From Kappaphycus alvarezii (Eukaryota > Rhodophyta > Florideophyceae > Gigartinales > Solieriaceae): a stretch of 64,000 nt of DNA. The number at the start of each line of letters is the position of its first letter. The stretch's first letter is position 1. The stretch spans positions 744,001-808,000 of the forward strand of contig NADL03000639.1 of NCBI GenBank assembly GCA_002205965.3. Direction: 5' to 3'. The notes under the pieces are model-generated. The model worked only from the letters and a program-made list of their open reading frames with translations. It did not search any database and was not told the DNA's origin. Shown piece after piece: positions 19,129 through 50,470 of the stretch. The position numbers were made by a program, and so were the translations under genes.

Positions 19129-20744
19129 CTAGGTGAGCGGGCTAAACGTGCGCACTCTCCTGTTGGAGGGCGCTAGAGGGTTAACGAATGTAACGTCGAA
19201 GAAATCTGTGCCTCCATTGCTTCCCATGCACGAATATCCGGTCTTGTGCGGTGGAGTCCATTCCGGGGCTCGACGGCTGGGTGGCGTGCTGCCTTTTGCA
19301 AGTCCTGTGCGAGCAGGACGACCTGCAGTCATGTCGCCGGATGGTGCCCTCCATGCAAGCAATGCATGAGATTGCCAAAACAGTCGAGAATCTCTGGGCA
19401 GCGGCGGCGAGGGCACGGGGTACCAGGGGAGAAAAGGGGGATTGAAAGTAGTATTGGAGCCACACCACGAATTCGCGGGGTCAATACTGGTCTTGAGTCC
19501 GGGGCATGGGGCACAGAAGACCCAGTCTTTGGCACCTGGGAGAGCCATAGAGCCCGGAATGCCTGTCTCCTTTGGTCCCGAGAGGAATTCCTTCTTGCAC
19601 TGCTTCATGGATGGACTCTGTTAGTCTGCTGCGATGGTGTTTTAGTTGAGCAAAGGCACTAAAAGGGAGAACTGATGAGCGCAGGCAGGAATGGGACCAC
19701 CTCCATGAGCATCTAGCGATTCATAGGTTGTCAATTCCCTGATTGGCGCAGGGAGAATAGCGCGCAATACACTGTTGGCCGTCGAGCTGGAAGCAAGGAA
19801 GGCGGCGGCAGCGATGTTTCTGGCCGATGTGAAGCCGATCCCAAGGGAGGGCTTCTTAGGATCCTTTGGTTTCACTGGGAGTTGTAGCTCGCGAAAAACC
19901 TCAGAGTCCAGGACTCCCCCTGCTAATGTCCTGAGACACTGCTCCATCATATCATCGAAATGTGTTGCACCTGGGCGGAGGACGATGTCGGCACCACGCG
20001 CAGCAAGTAGCCAATCTTGCAGACCCCGAAGCAGTTCCGCAGGAGCTGAAAGGCTACTTGCGTATTCTCCAGGTTAACGATGGCCTCGAGAAATGGACGG
20101 AGTGATTGGACGTGGGCTGTGAAGTGTTGCGTGGTGAATGCCTCTGAGCCGACAGGGGCGTTAAGCACAAGTGTTCCTTCGCTGTATTCTTGAGTTAGCT
20201 CCATGCGGGTCAGTACAGCGCTACTGACTCCGGCGGAGCAGTAGGCCACCAGACCTTGCATTTCGGAAGGGACAGATGCAGACCCTGCTAGTGGCGTCCA
20301 GCGAAGAAAGGATGTCGACGGCTCGGGAAGTTGTTCGTGACGCGCGATGATGTACCCGTCATCGTGATACCATAGTTGGAGCAACAGTTGGCCCATGGTC
20401 TCATCTTCCCCAGAACCAGAGCCCAAGAGCTCCTGGATTTGAGTATGAGGGGGTGCGAAAACTAAGTCGAAAAGGAGCCCGCCGAGATTGTCCCCCTGTT
20501 GTGTTCCTCGCACGCTTCGGAGAACATGGCGACCAATCCACATATACGCCGGCGCAGTTGCATAGCAGTACGAGACCCAATATGTGAAATAACAGGGTGC
20601 AACGATTTGGACTTCCTCTTCGTTCCACGAGACCCACGGAAACAGTTCTTTGCGAATAATGGCGTCTGCCAACCTGGCTTGGCATTTCCTGGCTACACGT
20701 GGTAGAAGCTTTTCGTCAGGAGTCAAATAATTGTTTCTCCACAC
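19129..20744 (-). mobile_element. LINE-like reverse transcriptase with restriction-like endonuclease tail, 5' truncated
   Basis: The minus strand carries the C-terminal half of a non-LTR reverse transcriptase. GTQQGDNLGGLLFDL (about 20,500) corresponds to the palm motif before the active site, and LWYHDDGYII (about 20,360) holds the catalytic DD pair in the family's YxDDG form. RNCFGVCKIGYLLR (about 20,010) is the thumb-side signature of this algal and plant group. RNIAAAAFLASSS (near 19,800) follows. Near 19,200 DFFDVTFVNPLAPSNR matches the restriction-like (PD-D/EXK) nuclease that these elements use to nick their target. The fingers region is missing: coding similarity stops at about 20,744, next to a GTAC repeat cluster, as expected for a 5'-truncated LINE. 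One or two frame changes separate the RT and nuclease parts. Confidence 0.8.
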
Positions 20745-40700: not shown

Positions 40701-43007
40701 TCGAAACTCCATCACTTCCTTTCCTCTCTCCTTGTTCTATAATCTACTTTTAAAATTAATTCAGTGTGGACCAATAAAATCTTATTTTTGCTTTTCTGAA
40801 ACGTTGAGAAAACTTAATTCTTTACTAGAACCGTTTCATAGCTCCCTGAATGCCGAATTCAGACTTTCATTCTTTTTTGTCAATGGAGAGAATTTTCGAG
40901 AGCTTAAAACCTAAAAAGAAGCAAAAATTTTGTCATTTCTTGATATAAGGGCCTTTAACTGGTTATAACACTTTTTTCAAACATTTTGGGCTCAGTAAGG
41001 AAGTTCATATCCACTAATCCAAAAAAGGTACAAAAGAGAGAAGTTTGAGTATATAAAGAACCCTGAGGGCAACGTAAGACGAGCCTTCAAGGTTGAGCTC
41101 CATTCAAACAACTTTCTTTGATATTTTAGTGATATTTACCGAGAATTTGATAAGGGTTTCCTCAATGAGGACTCTATTTCCGGATCTCTCGTAATACTCT
41201 CATTGCTGCGCCGGACTGTGTACATTTTTCATCTAACAAGGTGCTGCTTACTACAAAGCCCTCTTCAAGATTATTTATAAATAATAAATAGGTCTCAGCT
41301 TGTTTTACCAACAGGTAAATCTAGGCAGATTCTCTCAGAAGTAGAATATCAGCATAGTGGGCAATTTTATGCATCGAGATGCAAGATTCGCTCAAATTGA
41401 GTAGAAACTCTACGATCTGGCTGCCAATATGGCTAGTATAACTCTTCGTGTGCTACGGGATGCGGAAAAGAGTGCTCGAAGCTCCTCTTAAAGATTAAAT
41501 AAGAGGCCAATTTCTCATATTGCTAGAAAATTGGATATGCTGCGAATAATTGCGAAAAGAACCATCACTTTGACAAGAAATGCGAAAGATTAGGCAAGAA
41601 TAATCACGGCATAAGCATCTATTGGGCTTCCCCGAAGGCTACGGCCTCAGCTCCGGCGCTTGATCCTCAGGCTGCAGTGACTTTTTCCCTTGTCTTAAAA
41701 CGTGTGCAACAGCCAGCTGCCTCTCTGCTGTTGTCTTTGAGGCTATACAAGCAGCCGCAGATGGAGCCTCCCCCATTCATCCCAAGCGACGGTAGTGAGG
41801 GGAGTTCCGGATCCTGTCACGGCAGCTAGACGTAATACCGCTAGAGAGTCACTCATGAAATATTTTTGGGCGCTTGGGATTGATATAGAACCTGCCTTAA
41901 CCCTGTACACGCTTTCATGCAGAACTTCATCAGTGTATCAAACCAACTTGCGAAGAAATTCAAGCGTAAAGAGAAGAGGGAGACTGATCGTAAAAGGATC
42001 TATTAACAGTATTAGGTTTTGTAAGATGTCGTCAGAGAACTTACGAAACTTATAGCTGGCGTTCGCGCAGTGGGCTGCTCGGTGCGGCACTTGTCGGTTG
42101 AGTGGCGAAGGCTGTGCTGGGGTGTGATTGTTGCTCTGCGTACGTACCTGATCTAGCTGTTTCTTGTCAAACGGCTGTCTAAACAGTGTCTTCTGCTGGT
42201 TTGGCTGAGTTAATCAAGTAGCTTCTTTGCTATGATACCAGGGCTTCTTGGTACCTAGTCTGCAGCTGTGGTAGGTGTCGCTTCGTTTTCGTTTTTCTTT
42301 TTCCGGGTCTACTTCACGGAGTGGCCGTTACCGTCTTTTTATAGCACTTCACCTTCGGCCGATTGCCGGCTGTCACTGGCCGCAATGGTTGGCAGAGCGC
42401 CAATATTTCCACTAGCACTGATGCTGGGCATAACTTTCATCGCGTGGAGGCTGTCTAGTGCCGTATCAGACCCTCACTGTCAGTTGCCGGCTACTTCCAC
42501 TGGACATCTGGGTTGGCGGAGCCACAAAACCTTTTACTGATATTGGGCCACCAATGACGAGCGTCACTGACATCGAGTGGATGTTCCCTAGCGCGGTATC
42601 GAAACTTACCTATCGATCTGTTTGTCGCGTGAATATTCCGCCACCATTCGATACAGTGGGCGAACAGAGTACAGTGTCGTGTGATCTGTACTGTACGTGT
42701 CTGTGCCCACCTACAGCAAACCAATAACGTCTGCGTCACCTTCATTTCATAGAACTTTCCAACGCTTTGATGGAACTATCTTGGTGTCAGATACCCCGGG
42801 AGATAATCGAGATATTGAGGTTGGATTACGTCTTCTCTTCACACCCTCGAAAGCTTTGCTAATCCGAAGAAATCACTAAGAGCAATCCAGCCGTTTTCCC
42901 GCGATGGTCATCCTACGCTTATAGTTTCGCCTGCGAAGATATGTTGCACGATTTGCCAGGCCCTCTTTGATACGGGACATTTCCGAGCCTCATCTCTAAC
43001 GGGCTCA
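40701..43007. other. AT-rich sequence with a possible gag remnant
   Basis: At about 41,520-41,830 on the plus strand a Cys/His-bearing basic stretch (NNCEKNHHFDKKCERLG) followed by a Pro/Ala-rich part resembles a decayed retroelement gag nucleocapsid. This is weak. Otherwise no gene is seen. CTGTACTGTAC occurs once near 42,687. Confidence 0.35.
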
Positions 43008-43012
43008 CCAAG

Positions 43013-43245
43013 TGAAAGCGGCGATGCGTTCCACTTTGCTACTGCGCCCTCTTTCGCAAAAGTGAAAAGTCAAACAAAAAAACTCCCCTCAATTATCTGG
43101 ATAGTCATCCTATTCTGTCTCCTCTTCTTTTCCTTTTCTCTAGCCTCATATGCCTCCGCCCCTACAATCAAATAAAACCAGCGTGTAAACATTAAATCTA
43201 ACGGTAGAGAATAGAATTATTACAAGTGTACACGTGACGCCCACA
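43013..43245 (-). repeat. LTR of the Ty3/gypsy element (left; 3' in element orientation)
   Basis: It begins TGAAAGCGGCGATGC and ends GTGACGCCCACA. It is a direct repeat of 49,293-49,529. Confidence 0.9.
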
Positions 43246-44000
43246 TCACCCCCAATGAGGACACGCTGCGCCCTCGCAGAACAAGCCAAAAAATTAAATG
43301 CAAAACACGGAACCAAAAAAAACACACTAAAAAGCGTTAACTACGCAATTTCCGCACTGGAACCCCGATGGTCCCATTTACCGGAAATGTGGGGTATAAA
43401 TAGCCACATGTCACCATTTCCCCCCTTACATATCCATTGTAAGTGTGGGGTGTTGAGCGCACAAAAGGTGATCGATGGTTGAACTGTTGGTTGATGCTTC
43501 CGGTAAACAGGCCGAAACATCAGACTAGGAATTTATATAGAAAAAGTACTCAACACCAGCAGAGATAAATTTTAAGCAAACGGTACTGAATTCAAAGGTA
43601 TTCTAGAAAAAGCGACCCCAGAGTCATCAAACTATGGGGTTCTGAAGGCTCAAGTAGCAGCCATCAGTGTAACCGAGAGCAATACACATCATGGCAAAGT
43701 CCCGTTGGTCCAATTGGCAAGGAGGCATAAAGTAGTTGCTGATTGGTGGGTCCGAAATGTTTCGAGAACCACGCGAGATAGCCACGATGGCTCCATGTCA
43801 TTGGCTTGGTACAAAGAGGTATGATCTTATGTTTTACACTGGTGCGTGGGTACAGTGCACAAGTTGCACTGATGTCTTCTTACAGTGTAAATCCTTGGTA
43901 TAGGTTACTAGATGGATACTGTCACGGTATTTGGTGATTTATGGGCATAATCGCAACAGTAAGCCAAGTGATCCCGCACGTGTCGAAGCTGTAATCCCCA

Positions 44001-47000
44001 GGACTGGCCAGTCCTCGAACCCGGGCCGGCTCAACACATCGCACAAACTGCTTCTCATTGAAGAACACGCAACCTTGATAAACTATAACAACGAAAGAAA
44101 GCTCAAACAGAAACATATAAAAAAGCCACGGTTGAAAAGACGAGAACCTCCGCGTCAGCTACTTAGCTCTTCTTATCTTCTCTTTCTTTGACACGGACGG
44201 CACCCGGCTCTGTCCTGGCTCTCCACTTTACCAGACCGGTCCGTACCACACCACACGTACGGCACAACTCAGACGAAACTTCCAATCGATTTTCCAGGAC
44301 AGCCGCCGACTCATCGCATCTCATCACTTCCGAGGCACGTATAGCCTCAGTCGCCTCGCGTGAATCCGACCACGCGTCCCCTCGCCGTCCTGTGACCTAG
44401 GATGGTACACAGACTGCTTGGCTACAGTCACCTCGTACATCCCAAGCACGAGCCACTTAGGTTCTAAGATCGTTTCTCCCTCGTTTTCCTCAGCAACACC
44501 TGATCTCCCGCATCATACCACCGACTCTGCAGCTCGGCCACGTCTGCAAGGAAACCACGCGTCTCCCTTTCCACGCGCATGGCCGCTACCTCCACCAACT
44601 CCACAGCACTTGCGTCATCCGACATTCGTCCAGGCCCAACATCCAACAACGGTACATCCCCTACATTCCACGTTGGCTCCTTCCGAACATCAACCAGAAT
44701 GGGGAAAGTCCACCCCTCCCCTTCCAAGCCCTGTAGAAGCTCACAATCCGTGAAATTTTATCATCCCAATCACTCTTATCGACCATGCGACCTTCGCGAT
44801 TGCCTCTTCATCGTCCCAACCATTCGTTCGGCACGCCCATTCGCTTCCGGTGCATAGGCGCTTAACGGCCTCCACATGACACTGTTCTCTCTCAAGAAAT
44901 CACCGAAAGCGGTCGCCTTAAAAGCGGGTCCATTGTCTGTTACCAACACACACGGTCTGCCAAACACCGACAGTATTTCCTCCCTAACGAACAGTATCGC
45001 CTCCTCGCAGGTCTCGTTCCTAGTCGCCCTCACGACGTCCACCCACACAAATGCTCTACACCAACCAATAGAAATCTATTATCCCTCTCGGTTTTCCTGG
45101 AAGGTCCCGTGAATTCAATCGAGAACACCTCCAACAGTCCGGTCATCAGCTGCCTCAGGCCAGAAACATACACGCTCAACGGCGCCGCCTTCTGGCACTC
45201 GTCACACGAACGCACAAATTTTTGTGCACATCGGGGATCAACCTCGGCCACCAGAAGCGCTCCTTCACAAACTGTTTCGTCACCACTGCATACAATGCCC
45301 TACTTTGTCATGCACGGCATCCAGTATCTTCCTCCTTTCCTCAATCGGCGGCACAACTCGCAGTCCTCCATTTAACCTCCGAAATAAAACCGACTTTGAC
45401 ACCAAAAAGACCTTTGCCTGAAGCCGGTATTTTTTGCTCGGGACTGGCCAGTCCCGCATCTCCAAAAACTTTTTCACCGCCCACAAACCTTCCTCGAACG
45501 TACCCCCATCCTCCGTGACATCTATGACCATCACGCGTTCACCAACCAGATAATTTTCCGCTTCGTCTCTCTGCGTCCCCACTTCGCCGGTCCCCTCTAC
45601 ATTTTCGACCATGCTCGCGAAAAATAATCCGCCGTCGCGCTCTGGGATCCCGAGCAGTGACGCACTTCAAATTCGTACTCTGCCATGATATTAACCACCT
45701 TACCAACCTTTCATGCATATACGTCGTAGAGAATGTCGTGCGAAGGGCCTGATAGTCCGAGAACACAACAAACCGCGAGCCAAGGAGGTACGACCTGAAT
45801 TTCTTAAACGCGAATACAACGGCCAATGCCTCCCTTTCGAACTTACTGTACTTCCGTTCTGCCTCCTACAACGTTCTGCTTGCGAACTGCGTCGAATGAT
45901 CCCTCCCATCCTCGTCCTTCTGCAACAACACCGCCCCGACTGCAGCCTTCGTGGCATTTGTGTGCAGGACTTAGAGAAGCTGTATAAAAAGCTTCTCTAA
46001 GTCCGGCAATAGCAGCACAGGAGGCGTCGTCATAGCCTTGTTTAGGGTCATGAACGCCTTCTCTTACGCCGCTCCATTCCATTCAAACCTTCCACCAGGG
46101 CTCGTTAGCCCATGGAGGGGTGACACTATGTGCGCAAACCCCTTTCAAAACCTCCGATAATACGAAGCCATACCAAAAACGAGCGCAGCTCCTTAGAATT
46201 CGGCCTTGGCGCGTCAACGATCGCTCCGATCTTGCGCTCGTCGGTCCGCACCTCCTTACCACTGACCGCATGGCCTAACATCTCCACTTCCAATGCACCA
46301 AACCTACATTTTTCAACTACAGCTTCAAATTGACCCTTATCAACGCGGTCGAGTACCACCTTCACGTGGTCCAGGTGCTCCTTCCAAGTCTTTGACTTGA
46401 TGAAAATTTCATCGCCGTAAGCAACGACAAACTGTAAGTCTCCAAACAACATGGCCGCAACCCTCTGAAAACACGCCATTCCATTATTCGCCCAAAAGGC
46501 ATAAACACAAAGCAAAAGGCCCATACTTACATCTGAACGTAGTCATCTCCTGTACGGATTCATCCAGATGTACATTCCAGTAGCCAGTGAACAAGTCAAG
46601 GGTGGTGAATATCGAGCACCCTTGCATCTCGTCTTTAAACTCCTCGGTGTTCGGGATGGGCCACTTGTCTGCCTTCATCATGTTTTTCAATGGACGGACG
46701 TACACGCAAAACCGAGTTTCACTGCCCTTCTTCGTTTACATTACCACCGCAAATCGCACGGCGACTGCGACGGACGAATAATCCCTCCTTCCAACATGCG
46801 ACCAACTTCTCCTCGAATTATCTTATTGTATTTCGATGGAACCCTCCGAACTGGCTCGCAAATGGGCGTTTTGTCATCCAGCTCAATCATATGGGTGAAC
46901 GGGACCTTTCTCGGGTGATTTCATTGATACTACACGCAGTGACCTTCTCCCCTTCCAAAGGCATCCTCGTCATCTTCCCCTGCACCTCTGTCGGCACGGA

Positions 47001-48544
47001 CGCCAAAGCCCCAAAAAAAACCTCAGTCTACTCGTCACCGAGCCTCCGAAACTCCTCGATCTCGCCCACCTCTGCCTCATCGCCTCAAAGTCTTCCCCGC
47101 GCGTACAACCTCTTTTTCGCCATTATCACCAAAGGAGTGCTGGAGGTCCTCATCCTCCACGCCCTTCACGCAAATAAAATACTTATTCTCTGACTCTTCG
47201 TCCGTCGAGTCAACACGTGTAATGCTAGCACTGGGATTGGGCAGTCTCCAATCTCGAGAACCATCAACACCCGGACTGGCCGGTCCTCCACCAACCACCA
47301 CACTAATTTCGTCATCTTTCGAGTCCTCTTCGTCCTGTATCTTCGCTTCGTCTTCCGATGACGACGTGAACTCGGCTTCTTCTTCCCCCACTTTCTCAAC
47401 GCTTTCAGAATACAAGGGAAAAGTCACGGATATCCCTGCCTCGCCGCCAACTGTGAATATCACCGACAGACGACTCATATCCTACCGCGCACCAAGGACC
47501 TCCATGGTCGGCGCCCGAATGATTAAATCAAAAGGAGAGTCCGCCAGGACAAGGAACGTGAAGAGCGCCGTCAAAGTATCGAACGTCACAGGTACCCCCT
47601 TCACCTCTCCCAAAACCCTTGCTGTAGCTCCGTCCGCTACTGAAATACGGCGCGACGTCTCGCTCAGGCTGAGATGCAACTCCTCACACCACCTCCGCTG
47701 CATAATGTTCTGCAACGCTCCGGTATCCAGCAAGGCCCTGACATTACTCCCATAGACTTTTACGGAAACCATACGCAACTTAAGACCCTTCACCGCGGCT
47801 GACGCAGCTTTCTCGGCTCCAGCCGATACGAACGATTCCCCTGACTGGCCGGTCCCGCTATCAGAAATTTTCACCTTACCGCGATCCTGGACTGGCCGGT
47901 CCTGCGCTCCCTCTCTTCACCGACCCCACTTTCTGCGCCCTCATGTACAGCTGAAACTCGACCTTTTACACTCCTCATCAACCTCTTCAACATCCTTTCT
48001 GCGTCCTTCAAATCACCCTCCAGAATCAGGCCAAACGAAAACCCAAGATTGGCTTGCGCCAAACCAGCCTCAACGTCGTACCTCTCCACGAATACCTTCA
48101 ACCTCTTGGCATTACAAGCGCCTCCTTTCTTGTTCTTCTTGGCCTCGGCGTTCTTCTTCGACAGTTTCTGCATCGGCTGCGACGAGGGAACCTCAATGAC
48201 CCGGCTAATGTCCATCGGGTTCGGGCGCTCTGATATCGGCACCTTCAGCAGGAGCTCCCCATCCCTTCCGCGGCGAACTGCCGCCACATGGGACTCCTCC
48301 TCCCGAATCACCGTGACATTCGCACCTACACCCTTGCTGGCTTGTTCCTCCTCGCGCCTCTTCTTCGTCCAACAATCATCCTCCCCGTGCCCACGCTTAC
48401 ACCACAGAACACACCTGGGGAGCCTCGTTTCTCTAGCTCCTTCTTCCAACACTCGCGTTCGTCATGCCCAATTCTGCCACAGTACGCACAACGCGGAATT
48501 TCGCCTCCGGTACCAAGCCCAGGATGGGCAGGACAGGCCGGTCC
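44001..48544. repeat. recurrent 14-bp palindrome GGACYGGCCRGTCC inside the gypsy element
   Basis: Copies lie at 44,001-44,014, 45,441-45,454, 47,273-47,286, 47,842-47,855 (first base changed), 47,889-47,902 and 48,531-48,544 (one internal change). The first two extend to 16- and 18-base perfect palindromes. I found no copies outside this element. The coding copies fall in three different codon phases. Confidence 0.85.
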
Positions 48545-49292
48545 CGCTGGCCCAGCCCGATCACTCCCATCCTTTCCTGTCTTCCGAACCAACAGCGAAA
48601 TCTGCGCCAATTGTGGTGCAACGCGTAGATCTTATCGCCATCTTCCTTCCTATCCAGGCGCCTTGCCTCGCCGTGCAGAATTGGATCCTCAGATACTATA
48701 AACTTTACTCCCTCTGCGGCCCCCTGCTGCAATCCAAACCGATCAATTGACTCTCTGATACCTCCTCAACGACTCCTTTAATTAACTGCACGACGTCGGT
48801 GTATGCAGCTAGATGAACGAGCGAACGGCTTCTCCAACAACTACAGCCTTCGTCAAATGGAATAATTTCTGCTCATCAGTGAATGCAGCCGCCCTGTGCG
48901 CCTCATCGGCCTACTTTACGAAGTCAACGAGATCTTCTCCCTCGCTTAACTTCAGCGACAACGCCTTCTCGAAGGCAGCTCGGGGATCTTCTTTCGGTCG
49001 GAATCTTCTCCCAAGCGCGGCGCACACCTTTTCGTAACTCTTGCCATCCTCGTTCAGTTTCCCTCCTTCGGTGGACTCCTTGTACAGGAAATGAAATGCA
49101 TCTCCTCGAAAGAACTTAATGAGCGCACGAGTTTTCTCCTCTTGAGATCCCTCTTGCTGCACCACGTTCTCGAAGTAGAACAGTAGATATTCGATTGTCG
49201 GTCCCGGCTGACCCGTCGAAAAATAAGGCGTTTTCACTCATGACTGCTTACCGCCACGAACATACACAAAAGCCCCTCGACAGAAGTACAAA

Positions 49293-49529
49293 TGAAAGCG
49301 GCGATTGCCGTCCGTTTTGCTACTGCACACTCTTGCGCAAAAGTAAACACTCAAAGAAAAAACAAGACACCCCTTTACTATCTGGCTAGTCATCCTCTTC
49401 GGTCTCCTTTCTCTTTTCTTTTATCTAGCCGCCCGTGCCTACCCTTCTACAATAAAAAAAGCCAGCGTGTAAACATTACATTCAAGGGTAGAGAATAAAG
49501 TGAGTACATGTGTATACGTGACGGTCGCA
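49293..49529 (-). repeat. LTR of the Ty3/gypsy element (right; 5' in element orientation)
   Basis: It begins TGAAAGCGGCGATTGCC and ends GTGACGGTCGCA, followed directly by the second CCAAG. Gag coding sequence begins about 55 bases inside it. Confidence 0.9.
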
Positions 49530-49534
49530 CCAAG

Positions 49535-50470
49535 CATCAAAACTTTGTCCTTAAACAGTACTCATTCAAGAAGAAGAATTTCCAGGGTAGACTGGAAATT
49601 TGGCTTGTCTTACTCCCTGAGTACGAGTTTGACGTCTTGATTGTTATTTTTTCGGCAATGGTACCGCCTATTTCCTCTCTCAAAAGCGCATAAGTAGCTG
49701 CCCCTTGGCGCAAGTGAGGAGGATGCGCGTTGCAGAGGAAATAATCTCGTGTAAAGTCGACCTCGAGCCCTTACTTGTGAATCTGAAGCAATATCTTTTG
49801 GAAAAGTCCATCCTCGCGGATTATCTTAAGTACCGCAAGAAAATACGCCGTGCCTGTAATTCTTTCGTTTTCTTTCGTTTTGAAATCCTCTGAACGACTT
49901 TGGGCAACAAAATTGTGCTCTCCCGCCCCATACGCTACTAGGCTCTGATTTTCCTGAACTAATTGGAAACTAGGACGCCGATTCAATCAAACAGCAATTT
50001 TTTTTGTTATTAGTAGCCTGTATCTATCTATGAGACCCTCACGTATGTTTGATTCATGTAATTTATGCTTGCATGCTTTCCTAGTGCAGAAGCACAAGAC
50101 AACCTTTCGCATGACCTCACTGGAATCTTCCACGATTACTGCATTGAGTTCGCAGGCCGTTTTTCCTCAGACTCCTACTTCGGCGGCACCACCTCGTTGT
50201 TGTAGAGCATTTGATCTAATACCATTTGATTGGGGTCACAACGAATGCCACTGCCGACGTGGTGGTCAAGTTCTTCGAGCAACAGATCATCCATTACTTT
50301 GGCCCCCTGGGATTAATATCTTATTATCGGATAATGTCCTTTGATTCGGGGACTAGCGCACCTCTAGACTCCCGAAGGCTCGAAGATTACATCGGAAGAC
50401 CTTGGCGGAAAATGTTTCGATGAGTAACTGTGTCGCCGAGCACATGATGGGAACAATTTAAGGGTACATT
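49535..50470 (+). mobile_element. Ty3/gypsy pol fossil (RNase H end and integrase), opposite orientation
   Basis: The plus strand carries an RNase H C-terminal stretch (about 49,540-49,640, motif LLPEYEFDV) and, after a gap, degraded integrase core sequence (about 50,210-50,460). It abuts the right target duplication of the complete gypsy element, so the younger element may have inserted into this older one. It is heavily broken. Confidence 0.6.

Follow-up and report, generated by a model that had tools for sequence, protein, structure and literature searches.

A 14-base word, GGACYGGCCRGTCC, is common to a Ty3/gypsy family of the red alga Kappaphycus alvarezii and to an unrelated mobile element bearing a PIF1-like helicase; this sharing is new in the present analysis. 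The word stands at fixed sites, falls in three reading frames and in noncoding DNA, keeps a set spacing between its half-sites, has a strand polarity and is found in two unrelated elements, for which a sequence-specific reader common to both is the simplest account. We propose, with a probability of roughly 0.4, that the word is an oriented nucleotide-level site, putatively bound by one factor that would read it on sense transcripts. That two unrelated classes of mobile element use one oriented near-palindromic code in six to fifteen copies per element and have a putative reader in common, with one class possibly exploiting the factor of the other or of the host, we put a little below even odds.

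The window, i.e., the whole 64,000-base stretch of DNA analyzed, contained six matches to GGACYGGCCRGTCC at up to two mismatches, four of them exact and two with one mismatch, and all lay within 44001–48544. The shuffled expectation was 0.44, and none of 100 shuffles reached six. The earlier note had seen about six copies in 4.5 kb and none elsewhere in the window and had proposed a comparison with shuffled sequence; the counts and the comparison bear it out, no further match at this threshold being present across the 64,000 bases. Its description of a 14-bp palindrome held in part: the recurrence is real, but only the sites at 44001 and 45441 are strict palindromes. In the other four, the inner pair is broken (C opposite A, or C opposite T at 48531), and at 47842 the outer pair is broken as well. 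The motif is oriented and not a strict palindrome. On the coding strand, it is read as DWPV, as GPAS or GPAC and as TGQS, i.e., in three frames, just as had been noted.

All six sites belong to a single old copy of an element (Table 1), which is a Ty3/gypsy LTR retrotransposon, as had been recognized from the start: protease, reverse transcriptase, RNase H and integrase follow one another in that order between flanking terminal repeats, the reverse transcriptase and integrase matches of this degraded copy falling under their curated cut-offs. At up to two mismatches, the motif was absent from both terminal repeats of the window copy and from the terminal repeats of five elements, and an Rfam scan of 42800–49700 was empty up to E = 0.1. 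In most gypsy copies inspected, a G-run lies just before the 3′ repeat. The window copy also carries an inverted repeat at 45963–46008, between the reverse transcriptase and RNase H fragments (19-nt arms, 95% complementary, 8-base gap). Elsewhere in the window, a 265-aa minus-strand frame at 19947–20744 resembles, by eye only, a piece of a non-LTR reverse transcriptase.

Table 1. The gypsy element of the window, its recognizable parts and its six motif sites (positions in the window; motif letters on the coding strand).
Feature	Positions	Strand	Description
Old, degraded Ty3/gypsy element	43009..49523	-	Terminal repeats 79% identical; PR-RT-RH-IN order
5′ terminal repeat (coding sense)	49289..49523	-	About 230 bp, 79% identical to partner
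3′ terminal repeat (coding sense)	43009..43239	-	About 230 bp, 79% identical to partner
Open frame with aspartyl protease	47482..47916	-	Pfam Asp_protease_2, 3.9e-08
Reverse transcriptase fragment	46126..46542	-	RVT_1, 1.3e-06, slightly under curated cut-off
RNase H fragment	45539..45865	-	RT_RNaseH, 1.8e-15
Integrase core fragment	44776..45075	-	rve, 9.4e-05, under curated cut-off
Motif site 1	48531..48544	-	Linker 5′ of Gag zinc knuckle; GGACCGGCCTGTCC, GPAC
Motif site 2	47889..47902	-	5′ of protease; GGACCGGCCAGTCC
Motif site 3	47842..47855	-	5′ of protease, 47 bases past site 2; GGACCGGCCAGTCA, TGQS
Motif site 4	47273..47286	-	Linker 3′ of protease; GGACCGGCCAGTCC, GPAS
Motif site 5	45441..45454	-	RNase H/integrase linker; GGACTGGCCAGTCC, DWPV
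Motif site 6	44001..44014	-	3′ of integrase frame, 5′ of 3′ terminal repeat; GGACTGGCCAGTCC

The 336-Mb host genome contained 93 exact sites, 66 with C opposite A and 27 perfectly palindromic, against 2 for the reversed pattern; at up to one mismatch, there were 257 against 41. The genome-wide count that had been suggested as a check thus came out well above its control. Seventy-eight of the 93 exact sites lay in examined loci matching this gypsy family, and 5 lay in or beside the PIF1-helicase element (three on C759, one each on C592 and C627); the 83 sites examined thus include none in ordinary host DNA, the other 10 falling outside the loci covered (C52, 5; C742, 3; C458, 1; C802, 1). At C52:448129–486148, exact sites repeat six times at intervals of about 7.6 kb, as if one gypsy copy stood there in a tandem array, of which the sequence was examined for the first unit in part only (L032).

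Relatives of the window element were sampled from the genome as twenty stretches plus smaller pieces. Sixteen close copies, whose flank letters differ from the majority in 1–4% of cases, share the motif places, with single sites lost or mutated in several; that is, aligning the family, as the earlier note had advised, gave homologous fixed places with some losses. In these copies, the site in the linker 5′ of the zinc knuckle reads GPAS (phase 0), two sites 48 bases apart 5′ of the protease read GIGQS or GTGQS (phase 1), the site 3′ of the protease reads GRPAS (phase 0), the RNase H/integrase linker site reads DWPV (phase 2), and two to four sites lie in 3′ noncoding DNA past the integrase. 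The window copy is 57–72% alike to them in reverse transcriptase protein; five of its six sites are at their places, and the sixth (unaligned) is likewise 3′ of the integrase. Site 1 has homologous sites in other clades, the 14 letters of site 2 are identical in L013, L019, L032 and L044, and those of site 5 are the same in L022 and L019. Distant copies (L008, L011, L002, L031, L033–L035, L039, L040 and L001) have partly different site sets, and variants changed on both sides occur among distant gypsy copies (GGACAGGCCTGTCC, AGACCGGCCGGTCT and AGACTGGCCAGTCT). A short gypsy copy at L009 1910–6369 measures about 4.5 kb with its repeats, which are 98% alike; it retains the gag- and protease-region sites, is without the RNase H/integrase and 3′ noncoding sites, and may be a non-autonomous form of recent origin.

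Five gypsy relatives, L025–L029 (4.9 kb each), had no site at up to two mismatches. The earlier expectation that a true signal should be present in other copies of the family was thus satisfied by the 16 close copies but not by these five. Their reverse transcriptases are 70–75% alike to that of L021, and in a midpoint-rooted tree of 28 reverse transcriptase pieces they form one clade (support 0.996) amid motif-bearing clades, indicating either loss of the motif in that clade or more than one gain of it. Searching the five for another repeated word, with two shuffles of each, gave none that clearly exceeded its shuffles; purine-rich strings reach scores close to that of the motif even in copies that carry it.

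The same relatives bear on the idea of a minute selfish palindrome spreading by insertion into mobile elements, which the earlier note had likened to those of organelle genomes. Presence in two unrelated elements would suit such a palindrome, as would the 39- and 48-base segments that come and go, motif to motif, between neighboring sites across clades (L022 3439–3500, 48 bases; window 47234–47286, 39 bases). These segments are multiples of three, and their presence or absence is what copying errors between direct repeats would give. At the RNase H/integrase site, however, three motif-less relatives aligned gap-free and two carried three extra bases, i.e., none showed a 14-base gap, the remaining sites being too gapped to judge clean insertion. 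Furthermore, we found no vacant site from which the motif alone was missing, the same places are kept across deep divergence, and none of the exact sites examined (83 of 93) lies in ordinary host DNA. We consider a spreading palindrome very improbable, and the organelle-type suggestion is not supported here.

We compared clades at sites where at least one clade has the motif. Clade-to-clade identity averaged 87% in the 14-mer and 57% in the flanks, and the motif was higher in all 32 comparisons; together with the fixed homologous sites, this agrees with the earlier suggestion of a DNA- or RNA-level signal of the element. Within the main clade (13–16 close copies per site), the 14-mer was at least as variable as its flanks, indicating that copies, once inserted, decay freely; no protection of the motif at that stage was seen. 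Five open frames of L021 contain four sites at up to one mismatch, whereas 2000 synonymous permutations gave 0.41 on average and 3 at most. Several coding sites lie in G/P/A/S-rich linkers, as they would if chance and repeated peptide linkers, through coding selection or low complexity, had produced the word. This account is refuted by the three frames and the noncoding sites, the permutations, the shuffles and the genome count of 93 to 2, and we give it almost no credence. A repeat at the protein level is ruled out by the several frames and the synonymous permutations, and the earlier statement that protein selection cannot explain the repetition therefore stands.

The half-sites are held at a constant distance. 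In 18 pieces that total 68,761 bases, some of them from related copies, GGAC and GTCC were separated by six bases in 44 of 64 pairs over spacers of 0–20, other spacers occurring at most 4 times each, and GGAC-N6-GTCC was absent from the five motif-less relatives (24,505 bases). The center letters vary while the half-sites stay, giving GAAC, GGTT, TTCC and TGCT cores. We also considered a longer palindrome and rejected it: flank pairs 2 and 3 exceeded shuffles in 61 gypsy sites, which are related (p = 0.0055 and 0.0015), but not in 21 helicase-element sites, and in a one-copy-per-clade set of 38 only flank pair 3 was above shuffles (p = 0.02, six pairs tested).

The second mobile element encodes a PIF1-like helicase and a 553-aa frame, and its two copies, on C759 and C592, are 91–92% alike over aligned stretches. 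Six pieces of it gave no match to the gypsy set by blastn or tblastx, and neither reverse transcriptase nor Gag was found in the frames scanned. The 553-aa frame had no Pfam match, and the remaining frames scanned had no clear Pfam or PDB relative; one block may resemble KDZ-type transposases. At up to two mismatches, there are 13 motif sites in C592:66568–75486 and 15 in C759:170217–182764, 13 of the latter within the pieces examined; the outermost pieces, L042 and L036, are unaligned to the other copy and are assigned to the element by neighborhood. Sites cross the 553-aa frame in phases 1 and 2. A 307-aa frame in L042 is crossed in phases 0 and 1, and four sites fall within about 310 bases at its 5′ end, on either side. 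RGAC-N6-GTCY occurs 22 times in this element, other spacers from 0 to 12 occurring at most 4 times each. C627 (L038) contains one site and a relative of one helicase-element gene (56% over 55 aa); over 53 bases, L038 also matches by blastn the DNA next to two gypsy copies.

The motif has a direction along both elements. Of 38 one-per-clade sites, 24 are informative (C5/A10 or T5/G10), and 23 of these are C5/A10 in element orientation, 15 of 15 in gypsy and 8 of 9 in the helicase element. The exception, L048:1950, is inside an opposite-direction 182-aa frame, on whose strand it reads C5/A10. In a fuller list of 82 sites, the polarity was 42 to 2; L045:3840, an exception in that list, sits in an opposite-direction helicase frame and therefore agrees with the polarity, its C759 counterpart being symmetrical, and L001:2480 (gypsy) is an exception without explanation. 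The local gene strand was not established for the sites at C759:182649, 182751 and 178338 and in L038, and at some coding sites C5 or T5 is partly fixed by amino acids. The polarity fits a transcript signal, with few opposite-strand sites behind it and a coding constraint that may contribute.

RNA folding was predicted for 36 sites in 50-base contexts. The mean stem probability was 0.27 in sense and 0.28 in antisense, compared with 0.22 and 0.25 for implanted controls, and the sense value reached at least 0.5 in 10 of the 36 sites. Therefore, a hairpin is not the general rule, 26 of the 36 sites being below 0.5. In L022, two sites of the 3′ noncoding DNA and the one in the RNase H/integrase linker fold well (0.98–1.00). 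These results bear on the packaging or dimerization stems put forward in the earlier note, i.e., dispersed hairpins of gypsy RNA that would be bound by Gag. Such hairpins would explain the many dispersed copies in one orientation on the genomic strand, and the 10 sites with a strong sense stem, the three in L022 among them, are what they predict. However, the lack of a consistent hairpin and the recurrence of the word in the helicase element, whose scanned frames yielded neither reverse transcriptase nor Gag, weaken this reading, and L022 and L008 have no sites in the leader or first half of gag. The nucleotide-level signal is thus retained from that suggestion, and packaging or dimerization as its purpose is unlikely.

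The dispersed packaging signals of RNA viruses are stem-loops read by the coat protein. They occur as multiple dispersed, degenerate copies in genomic RNA (PMC6281560, in excerpt), a likeness to the present motif; in contrast, the present sites show no consistent stem prediction, and the word is shared by a helicase element in which reverse transcriptase is not known.

Reading of the word as duplex DNA is a close rival of the transcript reading, since it explains the symmetry, the fixed spacing and the variable center. The word would then be a double-stranded site for a dimeric DNA-binding protein, and gypsy would have acquired the same site. The protein could be a regulator of the host, or the helicase element could encode it as a factor for anti-silencing or transposition. 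Near-dyad symmetry suits a dimeric DNA-binding protein better than a linear RNA motif. The exact 6-bp spacer between half-sites in both elements, the variable spacer letters beside unchanged half-sites, the pairing of A5 with T10 beyond expectation (Fisher p = 0.0096, related sites), the four sites around the 5′ end of the 307-aa frame and the inconsistency of the RNA hairpin all argue for it. The polarity along the elements speaks against it; moreover, the sites pass through coding DNA, and none is present in the terminal repeats of the five elements, where promoters lie. We regard a duplex-DNA site as possible and as only a little less probable than reading on the sense transcript. Reading on the sense transcript is favored because it explains both the polarity and the position within transcribed DNA, and it is consistent with sites in codon phases 0, 1 and 2 and past the integrase stop. 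Against it are the five close relatives that live without the motif, the stem probabilities near those of controls, the variability of the 14-mer within the main clade, the gypsy exception L001:2480 and the coding sites at which amino acids partly fix C5 or T5.

In the reading we prefer, the candidate site would be kept in about six to ten copies per element and recognized by one sequence-specific factor common to both elements. This factor may come from the host, or one element may provide it and the other make use of it; it would most likely read the word on the sense transcripts of the elements. Its role is a matter of guesswork: it might serve export, stability, translation or escape from silencing.

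The earlier note knew of no such motif in gypsy elements, a statement now qualified by a copia case. Sireviruses (Ty1/copia) carry repeated palindromic boxes (RM boxes) in their LTRs, which are proposed to be regulatory; the boxes lie in the LTRs and beside env, mostly have a CGG-CCG core and differ between elements (PMC2829016, in excerpt). Going by that excerpt, the likeness is in short palindromic words with many copies per LTR retrotransposon. Unlike the RM boxes, the present word has a GGCC core and belongs to an element of gypsy order, is absent from the LTRs of five elements, lies in coding linkers and 3′ noncoding DNA and also occurs in an unrelated element. VANC proteins of the VANDAL transposons of Arabidopsis read short motifs and counter silencing, and they target noncoding tandem repeats belonging to particular VANDAL families (PMC10398659, in excerpt; see also PMC5735166). 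There, too, a short motif is repeated within a mobile element; here, however, the copies are dispersed and oriented, lie in coding and noncoding DNA and are found in two unrelated elements with a putative reader. As far as the two excerpts go, Sirevirus boxes and VANC motifs are each private to one element family, whereas the present word is in two elements. No mention of the exact word was found in the open-access literature, and among the matches listed (titles and beginnings of abstracts) no similar case of a repeated motif appeared except the Sirevirus boxes. CAR-E elements, known from animal mRNAs, are short, repeated, orientation-bound RNA words in the coding regions of intronless mRNAs; their sequence is different, and the likeness is by description alone.

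Selection on nucleotides within coding sequence is usually hard to see. In this case, one word is forced into three frames and into noncoding DNA of an LTR retrotransposon and a helicase-bearing element. The shared word suggests that mobile-element DNA or RNA has a common reader in this organism, and the recruitment or escape of host factors by mobile elements is thereby directly testable with a short oligonucleotide bait.
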